From the NCBI GenBank assembly GCA_903813345.2, contig CAIIXF020000010.1, forward strand, positions 11,911,181 to 11,975,180: a stretch of DNA of 64,000 bases, written 5' to 3'. Within the stretch, counting starts at the first letter, position 1, and the number at the start of each line of letters is the position of its first letter. The notes beneath the pieces are model-generated. The model was not told the DNA's origin. It worked only from the letters and a program-made list of their open reading frames with translations, and ran no database searches. This DNA is from Owenia fusiformis (Eukaryota > Annelida > Polychaeta > Sabellida > Oweniidae). Below are positions 139 through 58,081 of this stretch, in pieces. The position numbers and the translations under genes are program-made.

Positions 139-320
139 CTTGTCCATCCTCTTGTGGCACGCAGGGTTGCTTTTATGATAGTAATACGAATAGGAAGACA
201 TGCTGTTCAAAAGATTGTCGTGGCGGCTGTACTGGTCCATTGGCAAGACAGTGTAAAGCATGTGTCAAGTTTATCCATCAAGGCGTATGTGTCCCTCGCT
301 GTCCACCCCACACTTTGATT
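139..320 (+). CDS. INSR: INSR exon: Cys-rich (furin-like) region, first part
   Basis: It follows a TTTCAG acceptor and ends at a GTAAGT donor. Sixty residues carry 14 cysteines in furin-like spacing ([17 protein letters not shown]). The exon enters in phase 1, so one base of its first codon lies in an upstream exon outside the window. Confidence 0.93.
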
Positions 321-3300
321 GTAAGTAAAGATTTCTAACTTCAAAGTAACCTTTCCCAAAAAGGTAACTGATTAAAAGAGAGAGAAGTGGGTACAGGATC
401 TTGTTTGTATTTTTCTTTTCGCCATATTTTGGTGAGCAATACCTCATGTTAATGAACCATAATATGTGGGCCTAATTAAGGATACTACATGTACTGTGTC
501 CTAAAGTCTGAGAAATCCTTTTGCACTTACAGTATAGAGATAGACGCTGCATATCAAAAGAGGAGTGTAAGGATCCTTACCTGAGAGGTCATGACAAGAA
601 GAGGAACTTTAAAATCTTCAAAAATGAAAAGGAAGAGGGCTTGTGTCTTCCGGAATGTCCAAGTGGCTATATGGACGATCCCAAGGACTCGCACAAGTGT
701 GTGGCTTGCAAGTCATCTTGCCCAAAAGGTATGTACACACATTTTATTTGAAAAAATCCCTAGATTATTTAGTTTCACATTATTTTTTATAATATTTTAT
801 CAAAGCATTAGAATCAACAACAGCTTATTGGCTTAACTCTAATTATATTGATATTTGGTCATATTCTAAAATGAGAAAATTTTTGGGAAAATTTGAAATG
901 TTGAATCATTGCAAATGTGTTTGTTGGAATTATCCAATAACATGTTTTTATCTCACATTTGTAATTGTGTTTCGTAACTTGTACATACTTCGAATAAATA
1001 ATTTAGCATTTAAAGCATCGTTGATATTATATATTGCAATCATAACAGTAATATTGCACATGCATATGAAATACTGGTCAAAATATTACCTCTTTGTGAA
1101 ACTTAAGACAAATTTCACATTTGCATATTATTGTTAGAATAAAACTAAGTTCCTTCCTATCATTCTTGAACTGATACCCTTATAACATTGATTTATTACA
1201 TGGCAATGAACTCAAAGAAAATTCATACAAACAAGCCGTATATATCGATTAATATAACAACCTCTATTTAGACCCAGAACTTTGTTTACTTATTATCGAA
1301 TAACGCTCTTGGATTTCTATTCAATTCTATTTTCACTGGAAATTTGCCATTGTAGACAATAGAAATTTTGTAAACATTTGCATTTCGGTATTAGCTTTTC
1401 TTTTGTTATTGAGGGAGTTATTGAGGGATAGATGGCGTCATTTTGTTGTTTTAGTCGGTTATAATTGAGCATGATTCTCAGTTGTTGAAGTAAGCTTTTT
1501 TCGTTCACCTTTAATATCAGATGATTTATTATTAGTTAATTTATCATTGTCAGGTTGCGTCTAAGATCGGTCTTTCTCAAGTATCCTATAATTGGATGCA
1601 TTTTATACTTCCTGTTTTCCTCATGAATCGGAAGTCGCAAATTTGAAGGTGATGAAAATAGCGAAGAAATTATTTACTTATTAATGTTATCATGAAAGTA
1701 ATGGTTTACGAATGCGAACAAATTGAAGATCAGTTCTTTAATGAGTTTTAATGAAGTCTTGATTAAAGGGAGTATACTGAACGTTTTAAGTAGACATAGG
1801 GTTGAAGGTGTGAAATCTTTGCTCAAGTGATTAAAGCTAAGCTTGTATTCGCAAATGCAACTAACGCCTGTGTGCTACCGGATTAACCTACTATTTCACG
1901 ACCAACTCATTTAAATGGAATGAATGGAATAGTGACAGGTACTATTCATATTTAAATGAAATAGTAGGTTAATCCGGTAGCCGGCAGGTGTTAGTTGCAT
2001 TTGCGAATACAAGCTTAGTGTTGATATTTGATATTTAAGAGGCGATATAATGATATCATATGAAATGAATTGATGTTGGGTTTATCCCATGATTGAAATC
2101 AAAAATTTAAAAAAACTTTAAGAAAAAACTTAAAAACTAAAAATTCAAATCATACAGATATGTGGCTAATAAATGATATCCGCCTCATATGGGGCTGAAA
2201 GAATATCACATTCATCTCCATAATATCAAAAACATCACTCACTGTTATTGTACATGCAGGTATTTGTGGGATATCCATTTTGAGGAATATTGTTTTTATC
2301 TATGAGGTGATATTGATATCTGCACGAGAGAGCAAAGCGAACGAGTGCATATATCAATATCACCGAGTAGATTAAAATGATATTCTGAAAAAATCATAGG
2401 ATGTTTTTATTATCCTACACTTACAAGGAGTGTACTAAATGAATAATATCATTGCAAAATGAATTTCATGCCAAATAGAGTCAATTTGGCGGGAAATCAA
2501 CAAAAGAGTATATCGTCACAGTATCCTCCGCATATTGTGTTTTCCGGAGTATATCGTCACAATATCCTCCACATATTGGTTTTCCAGAGTATATCGTGGC
2601 GATATCCTCCGGTTATTCATTTTGCCAATAGATATAGGAATATAGGAATATCCTATGGTTTTGAAAAAATATCATTTATATCCATGAGTGGATATTGATA
2701 TCTTCATGACTGAGCACAAACCATCGAAACCATTGAATATCTTTTTTTTTGTCACCATCGAATATCACTTTTGAAACCAACGAATATCACTTTTTAATAA
2801 GTGATATTCGATGATTTGAAAGTGATATTTGATGGTTTGGGAATTTTTTGCTAAAATGTGATATCTTGATCCGCATATGAAATATCATGTCTTCATGTGA
2901 TATTCGTGAAATTCCCAAACCATCTATATCCTTTTAACCATGGAGTAAAACACCATAATTGTGGAACTTCAATGTCTTGTTCTGTTTCAGTTTGCCAAGC
3001 TTCGTGGATAACCAGTGTGTCTTCTGCAGAGAAACTGAAAGGCTGTACCATCATCAATGGATCTTTAGAACTCCAGATTACAAGTGAAGGAGGAGGTATG
3101 CTACTAATTAACATAATTCCATTCGATTATTGCAGACATTCAAATACTGAATAAGTTCTCTTAGATTACAAAGAAAAAGAGTGTACTTTTCATCTAATCA
3201 TGTGATATTTTTTTAATCAAAAACAATTAAAATGTGTTCAGTTAAAATTGAATTTTAATTTTTTCTTCATGATTTTAAAACATAATGTTTATGGGGATTC

Positions 3301-6300
3301 TAACTGGGATCATATTTCAACAAAATTGATTTTTAAAGTTGATGGACAGTTTCTAAAATCACATTTATTATGTAATTTCAAATACATGTAATGCTTTATT
3401 ACCTTATTAGGAAGTATGGGCTCGGAACTTGAAAAGAGTCTTGGAAAAATTGAGAGAGTGACGCACTACGTCAAAATTATACGCTCCTATGCTCTGATGT
3501 CTCTCAGCTTCTTGAAGAGCTTGAAACAAATAGATGGTGTCAGTCTAGAAAATGAAGAAAATGGGTATGATTCACACCAGTCTCGGATATTTCGAATTTT
3601 TTACAATTTTGATCTATTTATATTTCCTGGTTATAAATGCATGCACAAATATATGCCATTCCCCAAAAAGTTTAGATTGATTTTCTGGTTGTTTAATATT
3701 TTTAATCCAAATTAGACAATTTGCGCCGTATTGGAGATTGTTTCAGGGGATTTGGAATGATAATTGTCTCATTATCATATCATCTGACAAAAGGCAATAT
3801 GAATGAAAAACATCTTGCAAAATTAAAAAAAAAAGAAATTTTTTTGTCAGCTGCTTATGGAACACCTATACCTTAGTAATCTAGTCGTAATTTGAAGGAA
3901 GATGTTTGTCTATTTAAGATTCTTAGTTTATTACTAAATGAAGACATAATGAATTACAGCCTATATTAAAATAAATAAGTTTTGAAAATCACATTTTAAC
4001 ATGTGTTATTTTCTTACATGTAGGTACGCACTTTACCTGCTTGACAATGAGAATCTACAAGAGATTTGGGATATTGAGACACATCCAAAACTAGAAATCA
4101 AGCATGGCAAAGTCTTCTTCCATTCCAATCGAAAACTTTGCCATAGTAAGATATTAACATTCCTGAATGACTCTGTTATAATGGACCCTAGAGTAAAGAA
4201 GAGCCACGACACCAACGACATCTCGGATAAATCCAACGGCGATCAGAACACATGTGAGTTCGAGAATTAAAAAGCGATGTTAATACATAATATCATTTTT
4301 TCAGGTCAGACACAATCATAATCATTCTTTGCAGAATATTATTTCAGTATTGAGGCATTAATACCCTAATATCCATCTGAATATTTCATCTGAGATCATT
4401 TAAATAATCTTAAAATTCTTGAACTTTCTTATATTTCTTTGTATCAATTGACTGTTCTATTACATTACGTTTAATCATGTTTAATATATCATCTACTTAA
4501 CCCATATAAAAGTTTTAAACATTTGCAAGTTTTCAAATTTCTACAAATCTTTAACGTACATTTCTATGTCCCCACTACATTGTATGGGGATATATTGTTG
4601 GCCTAAGTCTGTATGTATGTCTGAACAACATTTTGCGTAGTTCACCATTTAACAGAAACAATTACAACTTTATTTCAACTCCTCGTCTTCGATGTTTTCT
4701 TTAAATCTTTTAAAACCCAGTTGATTCAAGAACCAAGATCCCTGCACCGCATTTTGAATGATTGAATAGCCTTTGCTTTATCATGGTTTCTTTTAATGTA
4801 TTATGATGAATTAGTCTTTTATTTCAAAATTAAATGAATCTAATGTAAATCTGACAGTTTTTAAGAATGAATTTATAGAGCTGATTGACTTTTGGGTGGC
4901 CATCTTTTTTTGGTGGCCATTTTTTGATAAATCTCGTCATCACCATTGATGTAAAACCATAATGCCTTATGTTTCTGTTTGATGGTGTGATTTATTTCAT
5001 GTCATTTGCCTTCTTGAGTTTATGAAAGAAAGTTTGACAGTGGGCTCAAGCCTATTTATGGAGACTAATAAATGATTATCCAAAGGTGGAGGAAACATAT
5101 TGTACACTATGTGTCCATGTATAGATTTGTATGAAGTTACAATAGCCTAGATTTTGAAAGATGAATTCATTAATTATGTAATCTAAAATCCAATTTTAAT
5201 TTTACATTTTTGCATTTTTCCCGTTTTTGTTTTTAACAACTGAGAGAATTAAAGAGCACCATTATTCAGCACCATCTATTTCTGGAGCGGTTATGGTTTT
5301 TGTTCACATATCACAATAGTGCCATTAATGTAGGGAAAGCCTTTTAACACACCCATATCATATTTTTCCTTTTGGTTATATATGTTTTTTCATAATATGA
5401 TGCTCGTTTGTTTCTTGTGGAAGTTGTGTTTGGGATGGTTTTTAAACTACATTACTAACTCTTGGAGAGTACATACTGTTTAGCAGCATCAGTAGGTATA
5501 GCTTAGGAAATGTCCATTTTGTGTTTTTTTGGTAATAATTTGGTAATTCTTTTTCTTTTCAAGTATTTAGTAGCTTTTTTGTTCATTCATTCAGAATTCA
5601 GGTATCTCATGGAAATCATAATCAATACTGTATGAAGCCTGGGTTCATTTAGTCACCGCATGGTAGAGAGATGCATTTCCACCATGAATGTTAGTTCGGG
5701 ACCCGTATTCATACACTTCTAAAAATTCACACTTAGTAGGATGTGAATACTTCCAGTCTATCCTGTATTACCATTGTCTTTGATCATAAGGAAAAGGGGC
5801 AAATTTTGAGATCGTGTCTTGTAGATTGCCTCTGTAGGTTTATGCTGAATATTAATTGTTTGGAAATTATTCCCTATCCAGGATTACTCACTTCTTATAT
5901 TTGGTGAACCTTTTTATGAATAGATTTCACAGGTATTTGAAATCATGAAGGAAAAATGTAAATTGAGCCCTATGTCTTTGAGCCCTATATGCTTCTAACT
6001 AAACTCCAGGTTTTTTTCTTCTAAAATGCCTGTTTTTAATGCTTTATAGTATTGTAAATTAGCAATGCATGGACGCTTCTTTTTAATGATAGGCTTCAAG
6101 TCACTGTTCATACTTGTCATGAATACCACATTGCTCAATTTAATGTTTCAAAGCTCACTGCTAGTGGCCGACAGCTCACAGTTTATGACATCACGCTCAT
6201 TGTTACTGACAAAAAGTTCACTGTTTCTAATATTGCCCATTATTAGTGGCCTATAATTTACTGTTATGGTGTCACACTAACCGCTAGTGACATCAAGTTT

Positions 6301-9300
6301 ACTATTAATTGCATCACGCTCATTGTTAATAAAATCAAGCTCACTGCTATTAGGCCTCAAGCTCCTGTTTATGGCCTAAAGCTCCTTTTTATATGATATC
6401 AAGCTCACTGAAGTATTGGTCTCAAGCTCCTTGATATGTAACATCAAGTTCCATGTTATATGACCTTGAGTTCATTTTGATATTTCCCAATCTGTTATGT
6501 AATTTCAAGATTTCGTTGATATCACCTATTTATTTCTACAATTTCAGTTTCATAAAGTTACAGTATAAAGCAAACATGGATGTAGTTACTGTATTTCATA
6601 GTTTATATTTGTAATTTCCTCCTAAACTAATTATTCATCAAGCAATAACAAAACTTCAGTTGATCTGTTAATTTCCATTTGTTCTAAAAAGATTCTGAAA
6701 TCGAGCCATTTTCAGATTCCTTTATTGAATTCAGTCTTTTTGCAAGTTTTTGCATATATATTTGCAGATATTTTTTCTAGTTTATATACGAGTTTATATG
6801 GAATTATTTTTTTCTTGATTTAGAAAGTATCAGTGATGCAGTAATAGCAGTAGTTGATGTGATGTTTTATGATATTTTTTCTGTCAAATTGCTTAATATT
6901 TTATTCGTGGTGCTGCTGATAAATCGTTGCATTGATTTTTCTGCATGTATTTCAATATAGGCTGAAACGGAAGATATTTCTGCTAGATATATAATGTTGT
7001 GACATTTAAATTGGATTATGAACTAAGAGAATTGAACCCTTGAATGTTATTAAAACTATAAGCATGGGGACTAAATCATTCATTGATTATGTCTTTAGCA
7101 TGCTAAATTAAGTTTCTGTATTATTTTGCTCGAATGGATCACTGACCAGATTTTATTAACGATAACCCATGCATTTGGGCTTCAAATGTCTTGGGGTTGT
7201 ATTTTTTCGAAAAAGTGTCCGGGACCCTTTCTCGAAAATGTTTCAAGGGGCTGTTTAACAAAAATTAGTTAATGTTCTATGATATCACAGGGTAACTAAG
7301 CAGGTGTTGTTGTATGTTTAATTTGCCTGTGATGTAACCTTGGTAACGGTTGTGATGTAATCTGTGCAGGTTCTGTCACTCAGCTGATAGTGAATGTATC
7401 AAGAGTTGCGAACTCAACAGCCATCTTGGAGTGGAATGCCTTTGATCCCCCTGACTCAAGGGAACTACTGAGTTATGGGGTATTTTATAGAGAAGCGTGA
7501 GTATTAGCTAATAGAAGGGCAGTCTTGGGCCTGTTGCTTCTGTGATCCTAGACTACGGGCCCTTGTTGGTTGTGTATAGGCAGCTGTTCTCTTAATATGT
7601 GAATCCTCTCACTATATACAGCTGTTGGTACATCGTGAACTGCAGCTGTAATGGCAGAAACGAGAGTAATCTGTACACCTATACATATAGAGCGCTTATA
7701 TGATGCAAAATATTGTAAAAATTCACTTTTTATCTGCATGTTGGTTTTATATGGTGAGAAGGTTTATCAATTATGTTCTTTATGTGTGTTGAGCATGCTT
7801 CGCTTTTCTATTACTTAACTTGTAAACTGGAGTAGGTGTCCCACTTTCTTATCTTCCAAATGAATGTAACCATGGTTAAAACACTCGCATCATAAGATAT
7901 AAACCAATCAAAATACCCCATTTGGGCTTGTTTTACTTTGTTGATATGGTAACTAAATTACATCATCATACCAAAAACAAATAGCTGACCAGTTACCATA
8001 AATAGAGATATTGTCTTGGGTGTTTATATCTATTGACTTGAGTTGTTTTATCATTGGTTACCATGCTTATACTAACTTTTTGCATTCGGCACTGCTGTCC
8101 CCCCAACCAAGATCCTCGCCCCTCCTATAATAATCATACCCTTGAGGGAGTTACAGGATCTTGTGTAGGGTTTAGTTAAGCAACTATAGGGCTAATTGGG
8201 GTGATGTAAATTACATGTATATACTTTAAAGCAATGATTTTAAAAATGATAAACCTATCATGTAATTTACTGGTGTGATTATCTAACCCAGCGCTATGCA
8301 AATGCCGTCCATGTTACTAGAGGCTTCACAAACATTCTCTAAGGTATTCATGCATAGCATTATAACAGCAGCATAATCTTGATGATAAAGCAGCTGCAAA
8401 TCCCCCCCCCTCCCACTTCACTGGTCTGTACCAATGTCACCAGGTAATTGATGTATCTCTATATGAACGTTGTCTTATTATTTCTCCCCTCAAAGGCGTC
8501 TTAAGCAAGTTAAAGGTACAAGTAACTGCAGTGATGACCGTGGCGGCGACTATCATGTGGAACCAATTCAAAATTGCTGACATGAGAGAACTTCTCAGCT
8601 ATGGGCTATTTTATCGGGAGGCGTAAGTATTTTATAGAGCGTTATCCTCAGTTCCACATCTTTCCACCAGAGTTCATAAACTAATACTTCTACTCATCTC
8701 ACGTCATGTGATGTCATCCATCGATGCATTGTTATATGACATCATTGTTTTGTTACATACACAAAATATTGCCACGTTATCTCATGATTTAAAAAATCAC
8801 TTTGTTATAGTTTTTGTCACATTTTCTCAAAATATGAGGACATTTGATGTCAATTTTCAAAAAAAATTAAAAAGATTTTCTCGATGTAGTGTGGTTTTAA
8901 TTACAGAAAGTTTAACGGACTCATCAAGAAGATGTTCTCCATTTTTGTCTTCTTGTAGCTTAGCACCTTAAATTCAACATTGTAGCCACCAAGGAAACAT
9001 TTAGCAATACCAATAGAAAGTATTTACTATTTAATTCAGGCCTGTAGCCTTTCTTTTAAAATCATGCAGTTTTTCAACATTCTGAGCACTTTTCACATGA
9101 TTTTTTTCCCCAAACTGTCAGAAAGCTCCCTCCCCGTTGGCAAATTCCCGGCTAAAACCCCCCTTAGTAAAACCGCCCCCCCCCCAAGTAAATCCTGGCT
9201 ACAGGCCTGTAAATATTCTTGGTTTTAGCTAGGTATAATTGATTTTACCAATCTTCGTTCTTCACCTGTAACATGTCACAGGTGTTATGTACATACATTG

Positions 9301-12300
9301 GACAATTTTTTCATCAATTTCACTCCAGATCGAAAGTTCAGCTCAAATAGATCCGTACTATTTTATTCTTCATACCCAGTACTAACAAAAGCCAACCCCT
9401 GTTTTCTTTCTTATTGCTATAGTAGTTAGAATACAGTATATTTCTTAATCTTATCCGCATTTACATTACTATAAAATAATTAAATGCTTGTATAGTAGAA
9501 GTGAATTCACAAACATTAATTCCTTGTTGATTTGTGACAGACACATTAATATGGCTTAACACATTGTAAACAAAAGTTCTGTATATGTAAACAAAACTTC
9601 TAATTGTGAGTCCTTTCAAGTTAAATGTTCTCAAGATTTCTAAACTGTTCACATAGTCTTTGTGGTTCACATAGTGATTGTAGTCCTTATAGTTCCATGT
9701 TAGTTATTGTATATATAATTTACAGCACAGCTGTTTATAAGATGCACATACGAGATTTTAGTGATAATTTTTTGATAGTATAATAGAGGGATGGCTTTTC
9801 AAAACAGGTGAACCTATGTTCTGTGCAAGGCCACCACTTTGATATCGTCCCTTCATTACTGCTAATTTGTATTTGTGAAAATAAACATCAATTTGATATA
9901 GTCCCTTCACCACTGCTAACATGCATTAGTGAAGATTAGCATATCATTTTGATAAAGTCCATTCACCACTGCTAATTTGCATTAGTGAAAATAAAGATAT
10001 CAATTTGATAAAGTCCATTCACCTCTGCTATTTGCATTAGGGAAAATAACCATATCAATTTGATACAATCCCTTCACTCTAGTCCCACTCAAAGTACACA
10101 TTTTAAATCAGGGGGTTAACTCCAGAGTTCAAAGATGACATAATGCTTATAATGTAAATCTGTATTGAGATGACGTATGTCTCTGATTGCCAAAATTGAA
10201 AAACAAAAATTTTCTAATAACGTTTCGAATAATATAATGTTAATTCCTGGCGTGTTAACCAACATCATAGCTTGTTATTTCAAATCAAGATAAAGAAAGA
10301 GTAAATAATATGCTTACATTGGTTAAAACATCACAACAACGCGTTATATTAAAAAACTAACTGGTGAGAGTTTGCACAAACGAAGGTTGTACACAAGAAA
10401 CGTAATATGTCAGTCATCGCAAGAGCCCTGGGGGTTTCCCCGTCTTCATATTAAATACAACAATTATTTTCAACTCATGCTCGCTATGGACTACCTGGAA
10501 AATAGTACATGCATTGAAACCTAATGCTTAATGCTTTTGCTTATGATATGCTTTTAATTAATGAGTAAATGCTTAATTCACACACATTAATTGCAAGTAG
10601 ACTAATTGTTTAATTTGTTTCAGAGATATGACCAGAAGTTTTTAAATATTTTTGAATATATTGACCGATTCTTACTTTTCAGTCTTACCAATTTTTCTGC
10701 TCTGGGATTGTGTGAATTGAGGTCTAAGCTTTGAATGCTCATAGATTAATTCATTATGGTGCTTTATAAGGGGATGGTTTTCAAAATTCTACTGAAATTT
10801 GTATGGCTGCTTTGTGCCTGGAATTTGTCATATATGAATAAAGTCCTATGTAATTAAAGGTACATTTGCGCTTGTTGGAATCAAACATTAGACCTTGGGG
10901 GAGAAATTATTTTCAAAAAGCAGCATATTAAAGTTTAATATATTATAAGTTATTGAATGATTTGAAGTGCAATATAGGATATATTCAGCTCGAGAAATTC
11001 TATATTGGAACGAGAAAAAGTTTTAGGGTCCCATATTAAAGAAATTTATATTCAGTTTGAGATACTATGGGGAAATTCAAGTGATGGGGCAAAAACAGTC
11101 CCACCATCAAGATCTATAAAAAAATTCCAGCACAGCCTCAATTGCATTATAACAGAAGCAGTCAATACCATTCGCAAGCATGTTTTATTGACACATTAAA
11201 TAACATAATCATTGCTAGACATTAGACTTGTGAAATTCCAATGATTTAAACGCATTAAGGGCAACATTTGAAAGGCAAAACTAAAACATAAAAGATACAA
11301 GCAAATGAACTTACAAATAGTGAAGTTAACAAATGTTTTCTCTCAAAAATGTTTTTATTATCACTATGTAGGTCCTTTTTGCTTGATATTTGTTAGTTTA
11401 TTTGAGGCATGCATGGTCATTAGACATTATCACAGTATATTCTACCATGTATACAATGTATGTACATATGTATTTGCATGCACAACATTGTACATAGGGT
11501 TACTTTGTAGATATTCATCACAGTAATAAGGTTATGCATCATTGCATCAATGATATTTTTATTTGTTCAATTTAAATTTCATGCATATCATTAGGATGCT
11601 CACGTTTTTATTATTTTTTATTTAACGACTATTCTTTTTTAGAATTGTAATGATTCACATTATGCCATTTCATGTTATGTATTGTATTGTACTGTATTAT
11701 ACATACATTACTGTACCATTGTGTTATGGTATATTCCATGTTTAGCCCAATTAGATTTTTAAATACTTTCCATCAACCACTTTCAGGCCATTTAAGAATA
11801 TATCAAGGTACAGTGGGAGAGATGCCTGTGGATCAGAGGTGTAAGTATATTTCATTAACAAATCTTGAAAATATCAGGAAATTGTTCCTCATGAATTGTA
11901 TCTACAGTACATGTATTTACTAGGCTAAAAGTTAAGTTTTTATCATACCTTAGAAGTACCATATAGTCATCAAATTGGCATTCATCTCACTTTTCTTGTC
12001 TGCTCATTTCGAAACAAACTGTTATGTACATGTAGATTGATTTGAAATTGTCAGTGTGTATTTTTTATTTGAATATCTTGAACTTATTTGAATTTGGGAA
12101 TACTGGTAAAATTTAAGGCAGCCTGATTTTTGTGCACAATTTTTGTTCATTTTGAACTCCTATTATGAGTACAAATGATGTAATGTTAACTATAATTGAA
12201 ATACCTCTTGATGGATTTGGTTTATAAATGAATATTTCTTGTATGTTGTTTTGACGGAATGTGCAAATGAGGAACAGTTTCAGAAACCATTTTGTTTGGT

Positions 12301-15300
12301 GGATTTTGATACTTTGTAGAGTTAGTCTTTTTTTGTAATGTATGTAAATTCAGTTTGAATTTCCCTGTTGACTAACTGCCTTAATAATTTATTGATTTGA
12401 CGTTTTTAGTTGGAATATCAAAGACCAGGAAGTGACACAGGGTAACAATATTGTGTTCCTCCTTGTTGAGCTGAAGCCCTGGACTCAGTACGCCCTCTAT
12501 GTGAAGACATACTCAATCCGATCAGCAACAAATGGCGCTATTAGTGACATCATTTACTTCACAACTAAACCTGATACGCCCTCCTCTCCCCAAAATCTCG
12601 ATGTCCACAGCCGACAGAGAGAGTTGAAACTAACTTGGGAGAAGCCAGAGAGACCTAATGGCAATGTGACGACGTACAAGATCTACTATGTTAAGAGGAG
12701 GATTAACAAAGCTGAATATGACCTCAGAAATTACTGTGAGAATAGTAAGTGGCTAGTGCGTAATAGTTGTTGGTTAATTTACAATACTTCATGAAAAAAT
12801 TTCTGAAAAAGTCATTCATTGGCTTGTGGAGTTTATATCCAAATAAGACTCAGTTTTATATTTCGTATATAATACAGATTCCCTCGAAACATATGGTATA
12901 TGGGCTATGATAGCTCATAATAACCCCCTCAAACATAGGGTATATGGGCTATAATAGCTCATAATAACCCCCTCAAACATAAGGTATATGGGCTATGATT
13001 GCTCATAATAACCCCTCAAACATAAGGTATATGGGCTATGATAGCTCATAATAACCCACTCAAACGTAAGGTATATGGGCTATAATAGCTCATAATACCC
13101 CCCTCAAACATAAGGTATATGGGCTATGATAGCTCATAATAATCCCCTCAAACATAAGGTATATGGGCTATAATAGCTCATAATAACCCCCTCAAACATA
13201 AGGTATATGGGCTATGATGGCTCATAATAACCCCTCAAACATAAGGTATGTGGGCTATGATGGCTCATAATAACCCCCTCAAACATAAGGTATATGGGCT
13301 ATGATAGCTCATAATAACCCCCTCAAACGTAAGGTATATGGGCTATGATAGGTCATAATATCCCCCTCAAACATAAGGTATATGGGCTATGATAGCTCAT
13401 AATAACCCCCTCAAACATAAGGTATGTGGGCTATGATGGCTCATAATAACCCCCTCAAACATAAGGTATATGGGCTATGATAGCTCATAATTGCCCCCTC
13501 AAACATAAGGTATATGGGCTATGATAGCTCATAATAACCCCCTCAAACATAGGGTATATGGGCTATGATAGCTCATAATTGCCCCCTCAAACATAAGGTA
13601 TTTGGGCTATGATAGCTCATAATGTTTTGTAACCAAGTGTAAGGCGTGAGTGGGAACACGATTTAATATAAGATTACCATTGTATAGGAAATTAGGAGGA
13701 TTTAGTTTAGGAATTGAAATTTGTACCTATTAATAAAATTATGACCACTATGTCAGAGATTCTTATAAAGCACCCTGTAGGATCAATATGCTGTGATTCT
13801 TCATGAGCCCCCCCCCCCCTCCCAAAAAACATGATGCATGTATGAATGTGTCTGGAAATACAAAGAGATATAAGAACCCCCATATAGACCTTCGCTTGTG
13901 AGCACCGAAAACTTGGAAAAACACATTGAAGTCTAATGATGAAACTTATGTTACTGAAAAATAATAGAATGCATGTTCAAATCCAGAGAAAATGGTCCAA
14001 ATGCTCATAACTAATATATGTGTATTGCAGAACTGCGGCCAACAAAGCCTGATCAAGATGATGAGGAAGTCATTGAGGGAGAAGAGACAAACAAGACCAT
14101 GATAGATGAGAACTGCTGTTCTTGTGAGCCTGATGAGAAAACGGAAAAACGTGACAAAGCAGATGAAGATCGTGCGATGCGGATAAATCTGGAGAATTAC
14201 ATACATGATCAAGTCTACAAGCCACGGTTTGTCTTTGATTCAGCTTATTTGTTAAACTTCCTGTTTTATGTCTGGTTATTTGTGTTAAACAAGTACTGAA
14301 CCAACAAATAACTGTGATTCAAGTATTGAACCAACAAGTATTTCACAATAACTATGCCATAATTACAAACTGTTGCTCACTCCTCTCAGTTGAAAGTATT
14401 GAATTCAGTGAGTGAAAAGGATAATTCTGTAGGACTACAAAAGAATTACAAAATGACCCACATGTGAATTGTTATATATCAGGACCCTTCTATTTGCTTG
14501 AAATTATTCATAGTGCAAAACTTTGTACAAAACTTGTACAAAGAAAATAGACAGAATGACACTCATACTACCTTTAATAAGGGCTGGAACTTTTATTGAA
14601 AGTACCTCCATTTGTTCTACATGTATTTTTCAATTTGCCTGTTCAGGAATTCAAAGGAAACATCTGAGGGCAATGCAAGACATCTATTCCTCACATTTTT
14701 AAGAAGCATACATTGGATCATAAAAATACTAGTTTTACTCCCATTAAAGTAGAATGATGACAGCCATCGTAATTAAACCAATTTCATTTAACTTGCATGA
14801 AAATAAAATGACAGCCTTCATAATAAGACCAGTTCCATTCAACTCACATGAAAGTAGAATGATGACAGCAATCATAATTAGACCACTTTCATTCAACTCA
14901 CATGAAAGTAGAATGATGACAGCTATCATAATTAGACCAGTTTCATTCAACTCACTTGAAAGTATAATGATGACAGCTATCATAATTAGACCAGTTCCTT
15001 TCAACTCACATGAAAGTAAAATGATGACAGCCATCATAATTAGACCAGTTTCATTCAACTCACTTGAAAGTATAATGATGACAGGTATTATAATTAGACC
15101 AGTTCCATTCAACTCACATGAAAGTAAAATGATGACAGCCATCATAATTAGACCAGTTTCATTCAACTCACTTGCAAGTATAATGATGACAGCTATCATA
15201 ATTAGACCAGTTCCATTCAACTCACATGAAAGTAAAATGATGACAGCCATCATTATTAGACCACTTTCATTCAACTCGCATGAAAGTAGAATGATGACAG

Positions 15301-18300
15301 CTATCATAATTAGACTCCTTTCATTCAACTCACTTGCAAGTATAATGATGACAGCTATCATAATTAGACCAGTTTCATTCAACTCACTTGCAAGTATAAT
15401 GATGACAGCTATCATAATTAGACCAGTTCCATTCAACTCACATGAAAGTAAAATGATGACAGCCATCATTATTAGACCACTTTCATTCAACTCGCATGAA
15501 AGTAGAATGATGACAGCTATCATAATTAGACTCCTTTCATTCAACTCACTTGAAAGTATAATGATGACAGCTATCATAATTAGACCAGTTTTATTCAACT
15601 CGCATGAAAGTAGAATGATGACAGCCATCATGATAAGATCAGTTTAATTCAACTCGCATGAAAGTAAAATGATGGCAGCCATCATAATTAGACCTTTTTT
15701 CATTCAACTCTCATGAAGGTAGAATGATGACAGCCATCATAATTAGACCTTTTTTCATTCAACTCTCATGAAAGTAGAATGACAGCCATCATAATTAGAC
15801 CAGTTTCAACTTGCAAGTAGAATGATAACAGCCATCATAATGAGACCAGTTTCATTCAACTCGCATTAAACTAGATTGATGACAGCCATCATAATAAGAC
15901 CAGTTTTATTCGCATTTCAACTCGCATGAACTATGATAACCATCATAATTAGACCAGTTTCAAATCATACTAAAGAGTTGAAATTATTTTCATTGTAGAT
16001 ATGAGGCTCAACATTATAACACCATCTATATTGAGTGGTACGGTAACTTGAGGCACGTTTTATGGCTAAGATAGTTAATGAAAGAGATTTATAAGAAATG
16101 CTTAAATATTCCTGTCTAAACAACATCCTAAAATTTTCCTGGCAATGTCCCTTGGAATTTATGGTATAAAGATACAGACCAACATTTGTTTAGAATCTTG
16201 ATATTTATTTAAGGATTCATTGGCCTTATTATGTAAGCAATTTATTATTAAAGAATTGGTGTTGGTCTGTTTCTTTATTTTAAGCCAACCAATTTGTCTC
16301 CAGTGGTGTCATACCTGCTTTGACCATTAACATAAAATGAGATGTGGAGAAAGTATATACCATTTTCTTAATGCCTCCGTCACATTTGCTTTAGTAGCCA
16401 TTGGGCATTTTATCGATTTTGGGAGACTATGGCTACTGTATCCTAGCCATAGAGCATATGTGACTGAGACATTAGTGGTATATAGGAGACATCTGCATAC
16501 TATTGAAGTATTGATTGATGAATGCAAAACAGCGAAAGGACACTCTATGTATTGTCCATATTGTCATTTTCATTATTAACTTTTATGGCAAACGATTTAA
16601 CGGATTTAGTTACCATTGTTTCCTCATATGGATATCTTAAACTGATTACTTTTCGACATGGTGGGTAACTACAAAAAATCTTATCAGTGAATCCTGCCTA
16701 TGTGTTTTCAGCCAAATAAGCTTCATGATTCGTGTTTTTTCATGTTAGGTTAACTATAAGGTAGCAGTATCCTGAATGAGGTTCAGGATATTGGAATTAT
16801 CCCGAGGTGTATATCTGCCTACCCAGCCGGCACATAAAGCTATATCCTGCCCCCTGATGAAAATATATTTATTTATAAACCTCAAACACGTCCAAGTATG
16901 GGATAAAGTATTGATATTCCTCTCACGCGTGCAATGTTGTTCACCCCTCGTCTTATTCGTTGTATTACTATATATACATTATCATAGGTTTCAGTCAAAA
17001 ACAAAGGAACTCCTACTCAATTAGACATGGAACTTGCTGAAATTACCTTGTAATATATGATTATGCCATAATAAGAATTAATTAATCAGATATTTCTTTT
17101 GTATAATGGGCTACAAATAAATGTTTGAGTTTAGGTATAAAGTTAAGTACCGCATTTGCTATAACATAATGATGCTATGTGTGTTATTTATATACCCTTA
17201 TATACTTGCTAGTAAAAGGTGGATCGGGTGTCCAATAATTTGCATAAGTGCTATTGTTGTTACCCCCGTCCTCCTTGGCTCATCTGAAGTGCAGAACGAA
17301 GCATTGGGTTCATTTACCATTTGAACAAATCCGGGTTCAATAATATGTAGGCTCCAATAGGAAGTTACCAGTTTCACCACCAGGTGGCTAACTCGGATGA
17401 GATAATATCTGTAAAGAGAGTTACAATTTCATTTAGAAGTTCCAAGTTCATTTATAACTTTTGAAACCACATTTTCAGATTTAATTTCAAATATCATATT
17501 TAAAATATATGATATAACTCTCATATAGTCCATTTTCATGGGTCCTCCTTTTTGTCCAAAACCCATTGGGTCTAAAACCATATGGTCTGAATTCCAATGA
17601 TCTGAAAGAACTTGTAAAAAACTCAATTGGTCCATTTATTATTTCATTCTATTCAAGTTTCTTTTATACTATTACCAGATGATATGGATATACTGGATAT
17701 ACCTCGCTGTACCATAGAAAAAGAAACATTTTACATTATGTAGTTTTGAGTTTGTTTTTGGACCATTAGATTTCCAACCAGTGGGATTTAGACCAATGGG
17801 ATTTATATATTATTTTCTTAAATAGCCCTAACCCTTACCCGACCCATCTTGCTTGCTAGTATTGTCTTGTATTCTTTTTAGGTTGTAATTTGAAAGAGAA
17901 CTTTGGTGACTTTTTAATCTATGAAAATGTTTTATTTTCATTACATGATTTTCCTCCACTTAACAGCATGGAGAGTAAAAAATCAGAATATAAAATAGAA
18001 ACACTAATTTCTAAGAATTCAGTAAATGTATTCCACATCTTCTATTGCAGGCCTGACTCAGAATTGATAGGCGATGGATTTGAGGACCTCCAACCAAGAC
18101 CAGAGGATCCAAATGAGGGAATAATGAAACGATCAGCCCTTATGAGAAATGTTCCATCAAATGCTCACAAAGCACAAGCAAGCAGAGAAAGACGATCTCC
18201 TCCAAGAGTACTTGATGCTCCTTTGCCAAGGACAAGAGATACAAGAGCTCTAGATGCGGCTTTGGCAGACCTTGCTATGAACGAGGACCAACCAGAAGTG

Positions 18301-21300
18301 AACTACACAGTTGGGGAGAGAAATGGAACAGATGTTAATGTCACAGAGGATGAGGAAGAAGAAGATGAAGAAATTCATTTATCAGCAGAGGTCCATAACA
18401 AGGAGGAGGTCTACTTAACCAACCTAGAGGCCTTCACTGAATACAATATACAGGTACTGAATACAATGTTCATGTACTGATTACAATATACATGTACTGA
18501 ACACACACAATAATCATATACCAACCATGCTCAGGTACTGAATACAATACATGAACTGAATACAATAAACATACTGAACTCAATGTACAGATACAATGTC
18601 AAGAAGACGTTGAATACATTTGCAGGCCCGTAGCCAGGATTTGCCAAGGGGGGTTCAGCTTTCAAAAATTTCCAGGGGGGGTTCACATTTGACAATTTTG
18701 GCCCAAATATGGTGAAAATCACTTAAGAAGTGCTCAAAATGGTGAAAAACTGCATGATTTTGAAAGAATTTTTGGCCAGGGGGGGGAACCCTGCGAACCC
18801 CCTTTGGCTACGGGCCTGATATGCATATACTGAATACAATATGCAGAGATATGCAGAATTGTGTACAGAATACAGTTAATGACCAGTGATTGTTTGCAGG
18901 TAATGGCATGTCACGATTATGATGTGGAGGAGAGACGCCAGCTGTGTAGTCACCGTGCTATAATAACAGGAAGGACTCTTCCATCAGGTAAGACACGTTG
19001 TAGCCATATTAGGGTGTGGGGGGGGGGTACTACCTATTCTACAGGACAGGAGACTATTCGAGACTAAGTGCCATAATGGCTTTAAATCTACTACTTGTCA
19101 ATATTAAGTCATTGACCAAGTTGCCATTTTGGTTTCCAGTTTATACTGAATAATTATTACTTTCTGTAACGTATGTAATGTTCTGATGTCAGCACATATC
19201 ATTTTTATTTGTTTAATTTTGATAAGTATTTGATTAAAGAATTAAATTGGAGTTTATGACATATCAATAAAAACAGCTTAGTCAGTTCCACTAGAAATGA
19301 GTTGCATTCCATGGAACTCTAGAGGAACTGGTCTTCTAAATTAGTGACCTAAGATTCTTTTCTAGTAGGAACTATGTCAATCTCAAAACCAAGCGAGGGA
19401 CCTCGTGAAATTAGACATTTTAGGAATATCAACAGTCCCTTATGCATGAGGTGTATAAGTTTTTACGTGACCACAAGAAGTAGTGACAAATTGTTTAGTC
19501 TCCAACTTTTTGTGGATGGTGTTCGGCTGTTGGTGTTCAGCTGTCAGCATTTCGGGTTTGACGTCTGTAACAAATTCTTACAACTTTCAATAACTTGTGG
19601 AGACATAATTTCATGTTAATTCCTTGTCTGAATTTGGGTTAACAAATGTACTCTTATTTCAGCCACTGGTGATTTGATTGAAGTATCCAATGTTACATAT
19701 GACAATGTGTCTACTGGCGAGGTGAAAATAAAGTGGCTTGACCCTGTAGCTCCAAATGGTCTGATCGTCACATATGACGTTCGCTACAAAAAAGCAGATG
19801 TAAGTTGATCAGACAAGCTGTGTTAAGTGCAGAAATTTGATTTAAGATTCTGAATTTCAAAATCCTGTAAAAAATATTTTGCGCAATTTCTGGATTGTGG
19901 CATCATATTAGTGAATCACCTTGATTCACCGGGTTTCAGTTCCTCCAACTTCACCTTGATATCTCTTGTATATAATTCTATTCCCATTTAAAGCTGTTTA
20001 TATTACTTCAACATTTGTTCATTTGACTTGTAGATCCGGGAAGAGATCAAATGTATACCACACAAGGTATATCGGAAAATGAATGGAACTATACTGAGTG
20101 GCTTGAATCCTGGAAACTGGTCATTCCAAATCCGTGCATCCTCCCTTGCAGGCTTCGGCAACTGGACACCCATGTTTTATGTGCATGTCAAAGATAGGGG
20201 TGGTAAGTTTACACATGTTTACCTTGTTTTAATGTCCAAAATTACAGAATGTATTTTTTCAGCTCTTTTGTGGTGATATACGAGTACAAAGATTTTTAGG
20301 TATTTTATTCCATAATTATATCCACAGCCAACAGAATTCATTTACTTTTGATTTGAAGGATTATTTACGTTAAGTAAATTGTAACATTCTAGAACAAAAC
20401 AATTCTGTATTTTCCTTTTTATGTATTAAACTTGCACATCACCCTTGAATGCAATCTTGGGTTGTTCCGGGGTCAACTGTAAGATTTTGAGCTATGATGA
20501 AATAATATACGATGGTGAACTAATGGAGCAAATCTTGCGTACAAATACTCAAGATAAATGTGTCATTATGCTTTGATATTACGCAGGAATCTAATTTATG
20601 ACCACGCCAACTTAATATTAGATCATAATAATCTTGTTGGCTGTATAAAAATGTAAAAAATTGCGTTTTGAGGCCACGTGCAGGTTTAATCGTCATATGT
20701 GTTAACCTTTGTTTGTGTTAACCTTCGTATGTGTTAACCTTCATATGTGTTGACCTTATATTACTAGGTGGTACCACATATATGGCTGAGGGCATAATTG
20801 CAGCCATAGTAGCCAGCGTTGCTGTGTTCATAGTTGTGGTTATCCTGGGGAGTGTCTGGTACATTGCCAAGCGTCGCTTCAATAATAACATTCCTGATGG
20901 GATCCTTTATGCCTCTGTCAATCCTGAGTATATGAGTGCCCAAGATGGTGAGTGCATGGTCAGACTATAGGACAAAGGGGTGTAATGTCGACGTGTGGGG
21001 TAATGTCGACATAATAGACGGGGTAACTTCGACAATTATGTATTAGAAGTAGAATTTCCGTTTTCCGCCATGTTTGATTTCTGGAAAAATTAAAATCTCG
21101 CGAGATCTCGATCCATGCGAGAAAAAAAACATGGCTTCACCCTAGATCGGAAATTAGAGCAAATAAACAACAAGGTGTCGAAGTTACCCCACATGTCGAA
21201 GTTACTCCAAAATGGTGTCGACGTTACACCCCTTCGCCCTAGCTGTGAACCAATTAAAAATGTTCTCTAACACAATGAAATATATATTTTATATTCTGTC

Positions 21301-24300
21301 TTGTTAGATGTCACAAATGTAAAGATAATGAAATTCAATCGATTTTTTTTTGTGGATTAAAAAAAGTTTGTTAGAAATGGGATTTTATCCTCAAAAATGG
21401 GGACCATAATTTTTTAGTTTTACACCGGACTCTTTTTCACTTATTAGGTTTTTAATTATTGTTCTCTTGCATGTGTGCATCAATTTTATTTTTATTATTC
21501 AGTTTATGTCCCTGATGAATGGGAAGTGCTAAGAGAAAAGATTAACATCACTCGTGAGCTGGGCCAGGGGTCATTTGGTATGGTATATGAGGGTGTTGCC
21601 AAAGATATTGTGCCTGGCCAGGGCAGTGTAAAAGTAGCAATTAAGGTAAGTAAAAACTATTTTTTATTCAACTGGCTCAACTGAAATAGCCCTCATTGAA
21701 TTACTTTCTCCGGAATAGCTCTCATTGAATTAAATTCTCTGGAATAGCCCTCATTGAATAATATTCCCTGAAAATATCCTCACTTCCACTTACTTTCACT
21801 TGAAAAGCCCTCATTGATGTGGTAATATTTTATTCTGATAAAATGGTTCATGAAATAGCTCTTGAAATTATCTTTTCTGTAAAGTATTTTAACAATCAAC
21901 TGAAAATCAGTCCTTTTAGTATATCCTTGAAATAGCCCTTGTGTTTTATTCTGTCACCCCTACAAGTGGCAACATATTATTATATTCTCCAACTTTTTTG
22001 TGGATGATGTTCGGTGTCTGGCTTTTGTGTAACAAATGGTAGGTGGTGACATTTTGCATGTTAATGCCTTGTTGTGAAAGGAAATAGCCCTCACTGAAAC
22101 AGAATTTTGGTATGGAAATCCAAGACGTGCAGTTATCATTAATAAATACAACAAGTCTAGTGTCTAAATATTATTTCTTCCAGACTGTAAATGAGAATGC
22201 TACTATAAGAGACCGTGTGGAGTTCTTAAATGAGGCTTCAGTGATGAAAGCATTCAACTGTAACCATGTAGTCAGGTTGTTAGGTGTCGTCTCCAAGGGG
22301 CAGCCAACTCTAGTCATAATGGAATTGATGGGCAAGGGAGACTTAAAAAATTATTTAAGAATGCATCGTCCAGATGCCGAGGTAAATACCACTTTGGTTT
22401 AGTAAGTTAAGCTTATGTCTATAAATAAGGTTTACCATATTTGCCTTTATGAAATTTATGGAAACAAAGAAACAATTTTGACAAAGTAATTAAATGTTTT
22501 TAAAGAGATAAAATAAATCCGACCCTGCTTTAGCAATGGGACGCCTGAAGGTTGAATATTACTTAATATATCCTATAGATTTATTTGATAGCAACCATAA
22601 CTCTACCCGAGTTTCATAATCTTTGTAGAAACTTTGCTGTTTTAGTTACAATACTTGAAGGTACATTATGTTAAATTTTGAAGACAATTGGTGCATATTT
22701 AAAAAAAATACCAGCACCAGTTCTGTTACTTTTGGAACACCCTGTATCATAACAATTACTGTTACTACTGGAACACCCTGTATTGTAACTAAATACATTT
22801 ATGTTTTTATGATGAGTGATCTCACCAGCTATAAAGCAAGTGGGTGCTTCACCCATTTGAGGTTTTTATTAAGATAAGCTTGCACCAACTTGATAACCTA
22901 TTTGCACCTAGATGATATTTAGAAAGATCATTACAAATAAGAGAGAACTCTAATGTATGTTTCTAAATAATGCATGTTCTGATATTAGTATGTTTTGCCT
23001 TCAGGATAACATAGGCAATCCTCCACCATCATTAAAAAGAATTCTACAAATGGCGATTGAAATCGCAGATGGCATGGGATATCTAGCCGCCAAAAAATAT
23101 GTACATCGAGATCTCGCAGCTAGAAACTGCATGGTCTCTGAGAATCTCGTGGTCAAAATTGGAGGTGAGAGTTAAGATTATGTAGTTTTCAATGCAGTTC
23201 ATCAAAAATACATACTGTATGACAAATTACACCAACGAATTGATTACATAATCAAAATCTATTATAAACAGTTTGCTCCAATTTTAAAGAATTTGCAAGG
23301 CCAATATGATTTATTTTTATTTGATCACATTTGAATCATGTTTAAAATCATGCATCTACTAATATAGTGACAAATATTTTTCATTTCAGATTTTGGTATG
23401 ACGCGAGATATTTATGAAACAGATTATTACCGTAAAGGAGGTAAAGGGCTATTACCAGTCAGGTGGATGGCCCCAGAGTCTTTATATGATGGAAAATTTA
23501 CAAATATGTCCGATGTTTGGTAAGTGAAGTCTCAAATGAATACATTAACGTTTAAGCTATGGGGTACAAAGATGTTAATATGTTTAATGGTGAAGACCAA
23601 AACCCAAGATATCAGGAATATGGTCAAATTGCAATATTAAAGTTCAAATGACAGCCCAGTTGAGCATATTTCATGATTTTGAAATAATGTCATGAATTTA
23701 GGCCATATTCTATAATTCCTATGGAAATGAAATTGTGCATATTTTTTGCAGTTACGAAATAACCCCATGTAATATAGGAACCTATTATACAGCAAGGATA
23801 AATTGCTTTGTTTGTGATGTATTTTGACAAAAAAGCTTTGTAACAAAGTATTTAATGCTTGTTTAACACCTTATAGAAATCCTTTGTTAAATAGCTTTTT
23901 GTCAAAATGCTTCGAAAGGAAGCAATTCAATCTGCTGTGGAAATCTAACCATAAAATGATACAATTTTGTTTAATGTAGAAGTAACTTTTGTATTCTTTG
24001 TATTTGCTACGATTGTGAACGATTATGAACCTCTTTGTGGACAATACAAATTAGCCCATGTTTCTAGGTCATATGGTGTTGTGCTATGGGAGATGGCTAC
24101 CTTAGCTGCCCAGCCCTATCAAGGCCTGGCCAATGAAGAGGTCCTAAAGTTTGTTATAGATGGGCACGTAATGGAACCCCCTGATGGCTGCCCCAGGAAA
24201 CTGTGAGTTGATTCTTTTTGTATTATTTCAAAAAGGCGCAACAATGACGAGGGTTCTTACCAGCCCTCATGGATTTGGACACTATGTTAAATCTTTAATA

Positions 24301-27343: not shown

Positions 27344-27618
27344 AATGTCTCACATTCTAAGAACACCTTGAAATGTGACTCACATTCTAAGAAAACCTTG
27401 AAATGTAACTCACATTCTAAGAACACCTTGAAATGTGACTCGCATTGTAAGAACACCTTGAGATGTGACTCACATTTCAAGAAAACCTTGTAATGTGACT
27501 CACATTCTAAGAAAACCTTGTAATGTGACTCACATTCTAAGAACACCTTGAAATGTGACCCACATTCTAAGAACACCTTGAAATGTAACTCACATTCTAA
27601 GAAAACCTTGAGATGTGA
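27344..27618. repeat. 30 bp minisatellite, ~9 copies
   Basis: The unit CTCACATTCTAAGAACACCT with TGAAATGTGA has period 30. As a multiple of three it opens reading frames on both strands (27034-27576 minus, 27119-27493 plus); these are artefacts of the repeat. Confidence 0.92.
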
Positions 27619-29339: not shown

Positions 29340-30490
29340 ATCAAACCGATTGGCTCAAAAGTCATTTCACAAGCCCACCTTAATGATTCAGGTCTCAAAA
29401 GTTATTCAACAAGCCCACCTTAATGATTCAGGTCTCAAATGTTATTCAACAAGCCCACCTTAATGATTCAGGTCTCAAAAGTTATTCAACAAGCCCACCT
29501 TAATGATTCAGGTCTCAAAAGTTATTCAACAAGCCCACCTTAATGATCCAGGTCTCAAAAGTCATTTCACAAGCCCACCTTAATGATTCAGGTCTCAAAA
29601 GTTATTCAACAAGCCCACCTTAATGATTCAGGTCTCAAATGTTATTCAACAAGCCCACCTTAATGATTCAGGTCTCAAAAGTTATTCAACAAGCCCACCT
29701 TAATGATTCAGGTCTCAAAAGTTATTCAACAAGCCCACCTTAATGATTCAGGTCTCAAAAGTTATTCAACAAGCCCACCTTAATGATCCAGGTCTCAAAA
29801 GTCATTTCACAAGCCCACCTTAATGATTCAGGTCTCAAAAAGTATTCAACAAGCCCACCTTAATGATTCAGGTCTCAAAAGTTATTCAACAAGCCCACCT
29901 TGATTCAGGTCTCAAAAGTTATTCAACAAGCCCACCTTAATGATTCAGGTCTCAAAACTTATTCAACAAGCCCACCTTAATGATCCAGGTCTCAAAAGTC
30001 ATTTCACAAGCCCACCTTAATGATTCAGGTCTCAAAAGTCATTTCACAAGCCCACCTTAATGATTTGGGTCTCAAAAGTCATTTCACAAGCCCACCTTAT
30101 TGATCCAGGTCTCAAAAGTCATTTCACAGGCCCACTTTAATGATCCAGGTCTCAAAAGTCATTTCTCAAGCCCACCTTAATGATTCAGGTCTCAAAAGTC
30201 ATTTCACAAGCCCACCTTAATGATTCAGGTCTCAAAAGTTATTCAACAAGCCCACCTTAATGATTCGGGTCTCAAAAGTAATTTCATATTCCCACCTTAA
30301 TGATTCGGGTCTCAAAAGTCATTTCCCAAGCCCACCATTATGTTTCAGGTCTCAAAAGTCATTTCACAAGCCCACCTAATGATTCAGGTCTCAAAAGTTA
30401 TTCATCAAGCCCACTTCAATGATGCAAGTGTCAAAGATCATTCATCAAAGTCCACTTTAATGATATGAGTCTCAAAAGTCATTCAACAAG
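29340..30490. repeat. 40 bp satellite-like array, ~28 copies, with higher-order pattern
   Basis: The unit GGTCTCAAAAGTTATTCAAC plus AAGCCCACCTTAATGATTCA has period 40. Two unit types differ in the middle (GTTATTCAAC and GTCATTTCAC). Up to about 30000 they occur in blocks: one GTCATTTCAC unit followed by four or five GTTATTCAAC units, closing with GATCCA. After 30000 the pattern breaks down and copies diverge. Confidence 0.95.
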
Positions 30491-31671: not shown

Positions 31672-31880
31672 CAGGCCCGTAGCCAGGATTTGCTAAGGGG
31701 GGGGGGCTCAGTTTTCAAACATTTCCAGGGGGGTTCACATTTGACAAATTTGGCCCAAATATGGCTAAAATCACAAGAGAAGTGCTCAAAATGGTGAAAA
31801 ACTGCATGATTTTGAAAGAATTTTTGGCCAGGGGGGGTTCGCCCGAACCCTGCGAACCCCCCCCCCTGGCTACGGGCCTG
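31672..31880 (+). mobile_element. CAGGCCCGTAGCC TIR element with perfect 5 bp target duplication
   Basis: 209 bp with TIR CAGGCCCGTAGCCAGGATTT at left and GGCTACGGGCCTG at right. AGTGT flanks both ends (31667-31671 and 31881-31885). A reading frame across it is not coding. Confidence 0.92.
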
Positions 31881-32222
31881 AGTGTCTACCATGAATCTTT
31901 TCTTAACTCTGTAATATATTCTGACTATGAATGACTAACTGGTCAAAGTGGTTTAGTCTTCCTTATGTAAATATTGCATTTGAAGTTTCAACTATAAGTA
32001 AGTGATTTTCAAATGTTCAACTGAAAGCTGAGCCTGTTTGCATCAATGCTACATTTATAAGACATGTATTTTAGATACTCCTGTCTTTACAATGTGAGTA
32101 TGTCCCTTGTTGGTAGCTTATCATGACGAATGTTCCAGAAACCATATATACAATCTCCTCAATGTCTATTTACAAATAGGCTTGGTTGCCATAGTAACTA
32201 AGAAGTTGCCATAGTAATCATG

Positions 32223-35049: not shown

Positions 35050-35706
35050 AAATGGCATGAGAAGGGTAGTATTGATTGTGACATGATGATTAGGGATTAA
35101 TTAGAGTAATTCTGCACAAGTCATGAGAAGTGTAGTATTGATTGTGACATGATGATTAGGGATTAATTAGAGTGATTCTGCACAAGTCATGAGAAGTGTA
35201 GTATTGATTGTGACATGATGATTAGGGATTAATTAGAGTGATTCTGCACAAGTCATGAGTAGTGTAGTATTGTTTGTGACATGATGATTAGGGATGAATT
35301 AGAGTGATTCTGCGCAAGTCATGAGAAGTGTAGTATTGTTTGTGACATGATGATTAGGGATGAATTAGAGTGATTCTGCGCAAGTCATGAGAAGTGTAGT
35401 ATTGTTTGTGACATGATGATTAGGGATGAATTAGAGTGATTCTGCGCAAGTCATGAGAAGTGTAGTATTGTTTGTGACATGATGATTAGGGATGAATTAG
35501 AGTGATTCTGCGCAAGTCATGAGAAGTGTAGTATTGTTTGTGACATGATGATTAGGGATTAATTAGAGTGATTCTGCGCAAGTCATGAGAAGTGTAGTAT
35601 TGATTGTGACATGATGATTAGGGATTAATTAGAGTGATTCTGCGCAAGTCATGAGAAGTGTAGTATTGATTGTGACATGATGATTAGGGATTAATTAGAG
35701 TGATGA
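35050..35706. repeat. 66 bp minisatellite, ~10 copies
   Basis: The unit GTCATGAGAAGTGTAGTATT, then GTGACATGATGATTAGGGAT and AATTAGAGTGATTCTG has period 66. Central copies share three linked variants (GTTTGTGAC, GGATGAATTAG, CTGCGCAAG), which outer copies mostly lack. Confidence 0.95.
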
Positions 35707-57422: not shown

Positions 57423-58081
57423 TTCATAACATTGTGACCATTGCTTCATAACATTGTGACCATTGTTTCATAACATTGTGACCATTGGTTCATAACATTG
57501 TGACCATTGTTTCATAACATTGTGACCATTGGTTCATAACATTGTGACCATTGCTTCATAACATTGTGACCATTGTTTCATAACATAGTGACCATTGGTT
57601 CATAACATTGTGACCATTGCTTCATAGCATTGTGACCATTGCTTCATAACATTGTGACCATTGCTTCATAACATTGTGACCATTGCTTCATAACATTGTG
57701 ACCATTGCTTCATAGCATTGTGACCATTGCTTCATAACATTGTGTCCATTGCTTCATAACATTGTGTCCATTGCTTCATAACATTGTGACCATTGCTTCA
57801 TAGCATTGTGACCATTGCTTCATAACATTGTGACCATTGGTTCATAACATTGTGACCATTGCTTCATAGCATTGTGACCATTGCTTCATAACATTGTGTC
57901 CATTGCTTCATAACATTGTGACCATTGCTTCATAACATTGTGACCATTGCTTCATAACATTGTGACCATTGCTTCATAGCATTGTGACCATTGCTTCATA
58001 GCATTGTGACCATTGCTTCATAACATTGTGACCATTGCTTCATAGCATTGTGACCATTGCTTCATAACATTGTGACCATTG
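57423..58081. repeat. 22 bp minisatellite, ~30 copies
   Basis: Unit TTCATAACATTGTGACCATT plus GC (or GT, GG), period 22. Copies are highly uniform, with recurring variants (TCATAGCATTG, GTGTCCATT). Longest unit count in the window. Confidence 0.97.

Follow-up and report, generated by a model that had tools for sequence, protein, structure and literature searches.

The insulin receptor gene and its paired exons

The window analyzed here is the 64,000-nucleotide stretch C10:11911181-11975180 of the 498 Mb Owenia fusiformis assembly. It carries most of an insulin receptor gene, the first exons of which are located upstream of the window. Joining 20 coding exons at GT-AG signals gives a translation identical to residues 220-1532 of the deposited Owenia fusiformis protein P0002. 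This protein matches the Pfam domains Recep_L, Furin-like, fn3 and kinase, in agreement with the insulin receptor family layout of L1-CR-L2, FnIII and a tyrosine kinase. The first segment of FnIII-1 is present in the gene in two versions, designated exons 6a and 6b (Table 1), and P0002 contains 6a only. All 19 introns inside the window have GT-AG ends for either isoform. P0002 presumably derives from the published Owenia annotation, which is described as built from RNA-seq, transcript assemblies and ab initio gene models (PMC9977687). A second Owenia form of P0002 was not returned by our searches, and the P0002 cluster has a single member.

Table 1 Features of the insulin receptor gene around the exon 6a/6b pair (window positions).
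Feature	Position	Strand	Basis
Insulin receptor coding exons inside the window, 20 per isoform	139..25227	+	gene model
Upstream constitutive exon (end of L2), terminating with the first base of the Cys codon common to both versions	4024..4253	+	gene model
Exon 6a, first FnIII-1 segment, version in P0002	7370..7496	+	spliced model equals P0002; aligns to INSR/IGF1R FnIII-1
Intron separating 6a from 6b, 999 nt, GT-AG	7497..8495	+	gene model
6b acceptor CTCAAAG, weakest acceptor among the exons of the gene in the window	8489..8495	+	leave-one-out matrix
Exon 6b, the other version of this FnIII-1 segment	8496..8622	+	length, phase, 22/43 identity, profile E 3.7e-11; aligns to INSR/IGF1R FnIII-1
TGA read if 6a and 6b are both included	8578..8580	+	frame check
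Downstream constitutive exon, accepting either 6a or 6b	11787..11840	+	gene model
Next exon (remaining FnIII-1, FnIII-2 start); stop site for a transcript with neither 6a nor 6b	12410..12744	+	gene model

Searches of the 498 Mb assembly with Recep_L and P0002 revealed no second insulin-type receptor locus. Recep_L matched twice on the receptor gene and three times on one region of C7, while P0002 gave 34 matches (31 of the 242 candidates were scored). Outside the receptor gene these matches were restricted to the kinase part, with the exception of a weak one that starts before it (866-1180, 30%, 2.3e-7, on C9). The assembly contains at least one insulin-like peptide gene, with two matching pieces on C11. 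The window also contains long tandem repeat arrays at 12881-13623, 14737-15911, 27349-27618, 29354-30490, 35056-35704 and 57422-58081 (periods 44, 54, 30, 40, 66 and 22, respectively), of which the former two lie within receptor introns. A pair of similar stretches near 18626-18818 and 31675-31882, bounded by inverted GGCCCGTAGCCAGGA / GGCTACGGGCCTG ends, resembles, by eye, a short mobile element.

A first-pass annotation of the sequence had proposed that 6a and 6b are mutually exclusive exons, and its anatomical claims were borne out except for the acceptor of 6b (see below). Both exons are 127 nt long, they share the same phase at a distance of 999 bp, and their 43 residues align without a gap, 22 of them (about half) being identical. 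Exon 7 of human INSR likewise has a length of 127 nt. Each of the two completes the Cys codon T|GN that is left split by the exon ending at 4253, and each terminates in GC|, which forms an Ala codon with the following exon. The frame logic was likewise as proposed: joint inclusion of 6a and 6b brings a TGA into frame, and skipping of both shifts the frame, so that translation ends within the exon at 12410-12744. Because inclusion of both or neither results in a premature stop, only one of the two at a time gives a full receptor. A mutually exclusive pair within FnIII-1 of this insulin-type receptor is supported by the anatomy, by the frame logic and by the coding constraint described below.

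The pair stands out from its surroundings. Between positions 4260 and 11700 there are 22 stretches of 127 nt bordered by AG and GT, five of which are stop-free in frame, and only 6a and 6b look like receptor exons by eye. When a profile built on this exon in 56 other receptors was compared with all six-frame stop-to-stop fragments of the window, 6a was found at 1.6e-13 and 6b at 3.7e-11, with the next fragment at 0.23 or worse. A tblastn search of the whole protein against the window gave no second match with E < 0.1 for any other receptor exon, the FnIII-2 and FnIII-3 exons cross-matching at E 0.10 and 0.12. In the 498 Mb assembly, 6b matched only itself and 6a at E <= 0.001. It is thus hardly credible that 6b is an assembly artefact or a misplaced piece of another receptor gene: nothing specific speaks for this, 6b is single-copy, a further gene sharing its flanks did not turn up, and the divergence between 6a and 6b is far too large for haplotypes.

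Coding constraint and origin of exon 6b

The two exons differ at 58 of 127 nucleotides, corresponding to a dN of 0.46 by NG86 with dS undefined (the synonymous sites are saturated). Identity at codon positions 1, 2 and 3 is 23/42, 31/43 and 15/42, and the codon differences comprise 13 silent and 21 replacing ones. Placing 58 random changes on 6a in 20,000 simulated trials left on average 11.3 and at most 19 identical residues, compared to the 22 found in the real pair, and introduced a stop in 91% of the trials. The last 14 whole codons contain 6 silent differences, 2 replacing differences and 6 identical codons, and due to this excess of silent changes the high identity of that part looks like selection and not recent gene conversion. 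At 14 positions with a majority residue among the 56 other receptors, 6a has kept 13 and 6b 12. Over its 127 nt 6b carries neither indel nor stop, and its splice dinucleotides and its GTAAGT donor are intact. It is clear from this comparison of sequences that 6b was under coding constraint in the past.

The 56 receptors used for comparison were hand-picked from 227 others (P0003-P0229), omitting most vertebrates and some arthropods and nematodes. Of these, 31 are closer to 6a, 12 are closer to 6b and 13 are equally close to both; Lineus is closer to 6b (18 vs 13 identities) and Haliotis to 6a (22 vs 18). In a tree of 43 columns and 30 rows picked from 58, 6a and 6b pair together with values of 89/87, below the starred level, and the branch of 6b is longer than that of 6a (0.9 vs 0.33). 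Because 6a joins 6b and the branch of 6b is the longer one, we favour, with weak support, a duplication that took place in the lineage of Owenia and left 6b as the derived copy. An ancient, pre-annelid origin of 6b was unsupported, as the two versions join each other and the affinities of Lineus and Haliotis conflict.

Splice isoforms of single genes are hidden in our protein collection because it was clustered at 90%, and in five neighbouring oyster/mussel cluster pairs we saw no divergence peculiar to the exon 6 segment. A parallel was found in two models of insulin-like peptide receptors from Ptychodera flava, P0012 and P0086, which are 87% identical overall but share only 21 of 39 residues in the exon 6 segment, whereas the flanks are almost the same (148/150 before and 76/80 after). 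The segment ties for the lowest 39-residue window across the ectodomain of the two proteins. This is a single case, consisting, unlike in Owenia, of two gene models, and they also differ in the later ectodomain (about 75-80% identical, with an insert) and in the membrane region (60%). Both models sit on contigs of equal listed size, and they may represent tandem genes that diverged at the same exon or, alternatively, models in each of which another member of an exon pair was chosen. The annelid Ridgeia piscesae has a receptor-like protein, P0227, with L, furin-like and fn3 domains and no kinase Pfam match, resembling either a decoy receptor or an incomplete model.

Splice sites and exon choice

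Splice sites were scored with a small matrix built from the other exons of the gene in a leave-one-out fashion. The good donors claimed in the first-pass annotation, GTGAGT of 6a and GTAAGT of 6b, scored 5.2 and 6.6, within the span of -2.8 to 11.9 seen for the 18 other donors. Its claim of good acceptors holds for 6a with a score of 4.2 but fails for 6b, which at -0.6 is below all 19 others (2.8 to 8.9). The base at position -3 of the acceptor is A in 6b (AAG), compared to C in 13 (CAG) and T in 6 (TAG) of the 19 others. This weak acceptor fits a regulated or minor exon equally well as a failing one. Weak splice sites of 6a were ruled out by the same analysis, its two scores being ordinary.

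RNA pairing of the docking/selector type was analyzed by comparing the introns 4254-7369, 7497-8495 and 8623-11786. For pairings involving the middle intron the best helices were within the range of 20 shuffles (32.0 vs a null mean of 31.0, and 30.0 vs 31.5). The sole score just above the shuffles (42.0 vs a maximum of 40.5) belongs to a pairing between positions 4817 and 10743, and since it links both outer introns it gives no account of exon choice and was rejected as a selector. Local folding gave z-values of -1.6 around 6a and +1.0 around 6b. An RBFOX motif at 7735, between the two exons, was discarded as a candidate regulator because the density of the motif in the window, 0.5 per kb, is at chance level. 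Taken as structural causes of exclusivity, neither a short intron (999 nt), nor a U2/U12 mismatch (GT-AG throughout), nor RNA pairing (none above shuffles with the middle intron) was seen in the gene, and to our knowledge such a cause is not required in every mutually exclusive pair.

Ligand contacts and the proposed role of the exon pair

The exon 6 segment corresponds to residues 468-510 of human INSR, as judged from alignments to PDB sequences, with residue 12 of the 6a piece aligned to INSR 479 and residue 20 of the 6b piece to INSR 487. Fourteen receptor residues are listed for site 2 of INSR, and Tyr477, Arg479, Ser481, Asp483, Lys484, Leu486 and Arg488 fall within the segment; the same source assigns Pro495, Phe497 and Arg498 to site 1b, describes salt bridges to alpha-CT from Asp496, Arg498 and Asp499, and reports K484E and L552A as the most defective site-2 mutants (PMC6721835). 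For the fly insulin receptor, too, ligand binding on FnIII-1 is described, at a site 2', and its site 1b' contacts Asp846 and Arg848 are the equivalents of Asp496 and Arg498 (PMC10560217). Much of the ligand contact made by FnIII-1 in human INSR would correspond to exon 6, a point that goes beyond the earlier reading of the locus.

Human contact positions were placed on 6a and 6b through alignment alone. At the site-2 positions (in the order 477, 479, 481, 483, 484, 486 and 488) the residues of 6a/6b are V/V, R/A, A/M, S/V, T/A, I/T and E/M. The site-1b positions are P/A, S/M and R/R, so that two of three differ, and the alpha-CT bridge positions (D/D, R/R and E/E) show no difference. The two versions differ at 6 of 7 site-2 positions compared to 15 of 36 elsewhere, a marginal enrichment (p = 0.046, unadjusted), and positions at the surface are variable anyway. 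Two N-X-S/T sequons are present in 6a, at positions equivalent to 476 and 482, and 6b contains none. A sequon somewhere in the exon is found in 30 of the 56 other receptors, with 20 cases at 474, a single case at 476 and no case at 482. 6a may therefore bear sugar beside site 2 where 6b would not.

It appears likely to us that the Owenia insulin receptor gene has, in 6a and 6b, a mutually exclusive pair of exons derived from a tandem duplication, and that both are used. In the mechanism we propose, exactly one of them would be spliced in to give the full receptor, and transcripts with both or none would run into a premature stop and presumably be cleared by nonsense-mediated decay. Either version keeps the family-typical residues and those positions which form bonds to alpha-CT in human, while the swap would alter most of the site-2 positions and two of the three at site 1b, and sequons are present in 6a alone. 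Such a switch would most likely tune how insulin-like peptides are bound, be it in affinity, in ligand preference or in site-2 occupancy. We infer that 6b is used in mRNA and regulated by tissue or stage. Two versions of the receptor are probably made from the gene, and they may differ in how they sense insulin-like hormones; that the switch retunes ligand binding as such is, in our estimate, close to an even bet.

A different reading of the same data is that 6b is a former alternative exon, recently fallen out of use and dead or nearly so, its sequence still intact and its weak acceptor no longer selected. The AAG acceptor, the longer branch of 6b and its absence from the deposited protein P0002 would fit. 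We nevertheless consider this unlikely, because 127 nt have persisted free of indels and stops in spite of saturated synonymous divergence, with splice dinucleotides and GTAAGT donor in place and 12 of 14 family-majority residues kept. The stops caused by joint inclusion (TGA at 8578-8580) and, early on, by double skipping could also suggest that 6b serves chiefly as a poison exon that lowers the receptor level, the 6b protein being of little importance. A poison exon has no need of a conserved protein sequence, yet 6b is strongly constrained and has receptor-like residues, which makes this role very unlikely.

It is also conceivable, if rather unlikely, that the pair is real and alternatively spliced but ligand-neutral, affecting only stability, trafficking or dimer contacts. 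The marginal site-2 enrichment leaves room for this, and FnIII-1 is reported to touch L2 of the other monomer as well (PMC2577065); against it, the segment in human INSR contains half of the listed site-2 contacts together with the site-1b loop. Returning to a used, mutually exclusive pair, we note a broader and speculative extension to which we give only a small chance: the first FnIII-1 exon could be a diversification module of insulin receptors, exploited in Owenia by swapping exons and in Ptychodera flava through copies of the receptor that have come to differ at this exon. A single Owenia gene would then provide two site-2 surfaces, a glycan-bearing one with 6a and a bare one with 6b, and splicing would determine the kind of insulin-like peptide, or the number per dimer, that activates the receptor.

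In working principle the nearest relative of the Owenia pair would appear to be the IgIII b/c choice of FGFR1-3, where a receptor tyrosine kinase likewise includes one of two exons in a ligand-binding domain of the ectodomain (PMC3238399) and the variants are reported to differ in their ligand-binding spectrum (PMC3238399). FGFR is however another receptor family with an Ig instead of an FnIII domain, and the splicing and ligand effects demonstrated there are presumed for Owenia. Mammalian INSR exon 11 also gives ectodomain splice isoforms (IR-A/IR-B) with altered IGF affinity (PMC2577065), but it is described as a skipped cassette near the alpha-chain C-terminus and a mammalian acquisition (PMC2577065), involving no duplicated pair; the Owenia exons, located at the FnIII-1 start, are not of this type. 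Invertebrate isoforms are reported from C. elegans, namely DAF-2c with daf-2 exon 11.5 (PMC4876481) and the truncated DAF-2B (PMC7041946). The former is a cassette placed like INSR exon 11 and the latter a truncation, and neither swaps an FnIII-1 segment. In the open-licence PMC literature, among the matches listed, we found no recognisable description of an alternative FnIII-1 exon in any insulin receptor, in line with what the first-pass annotation had stated.

The role of the second insulin-binding site in natural receptors is still debated. If our reading is true, the Owenia pair is a natural switch of site-2 and site-1b positions with the remaining receptor held constant, and since a single gene supplies both versions, the test is already in place. 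This would also mean that an insulin receptor has been diversified in the FGFR fashion, undescribed in the literature searched (matches listed), and that splicing control enters the growth signalling of an annelid used for studies of life-cycle evolution.

Elsewhere in the same gene, the donor at 14226 (ACG|GTTTGT; exon 14031-14226, intron 14227-18050) is the second weakest of 18, the weakest being the one at 18453 (CAG|GTACTG). The exon ending at 14226 apparently terminates in the alpha-CT segment, near the position of INSR exon 11 and daf-2 exon 11.5.
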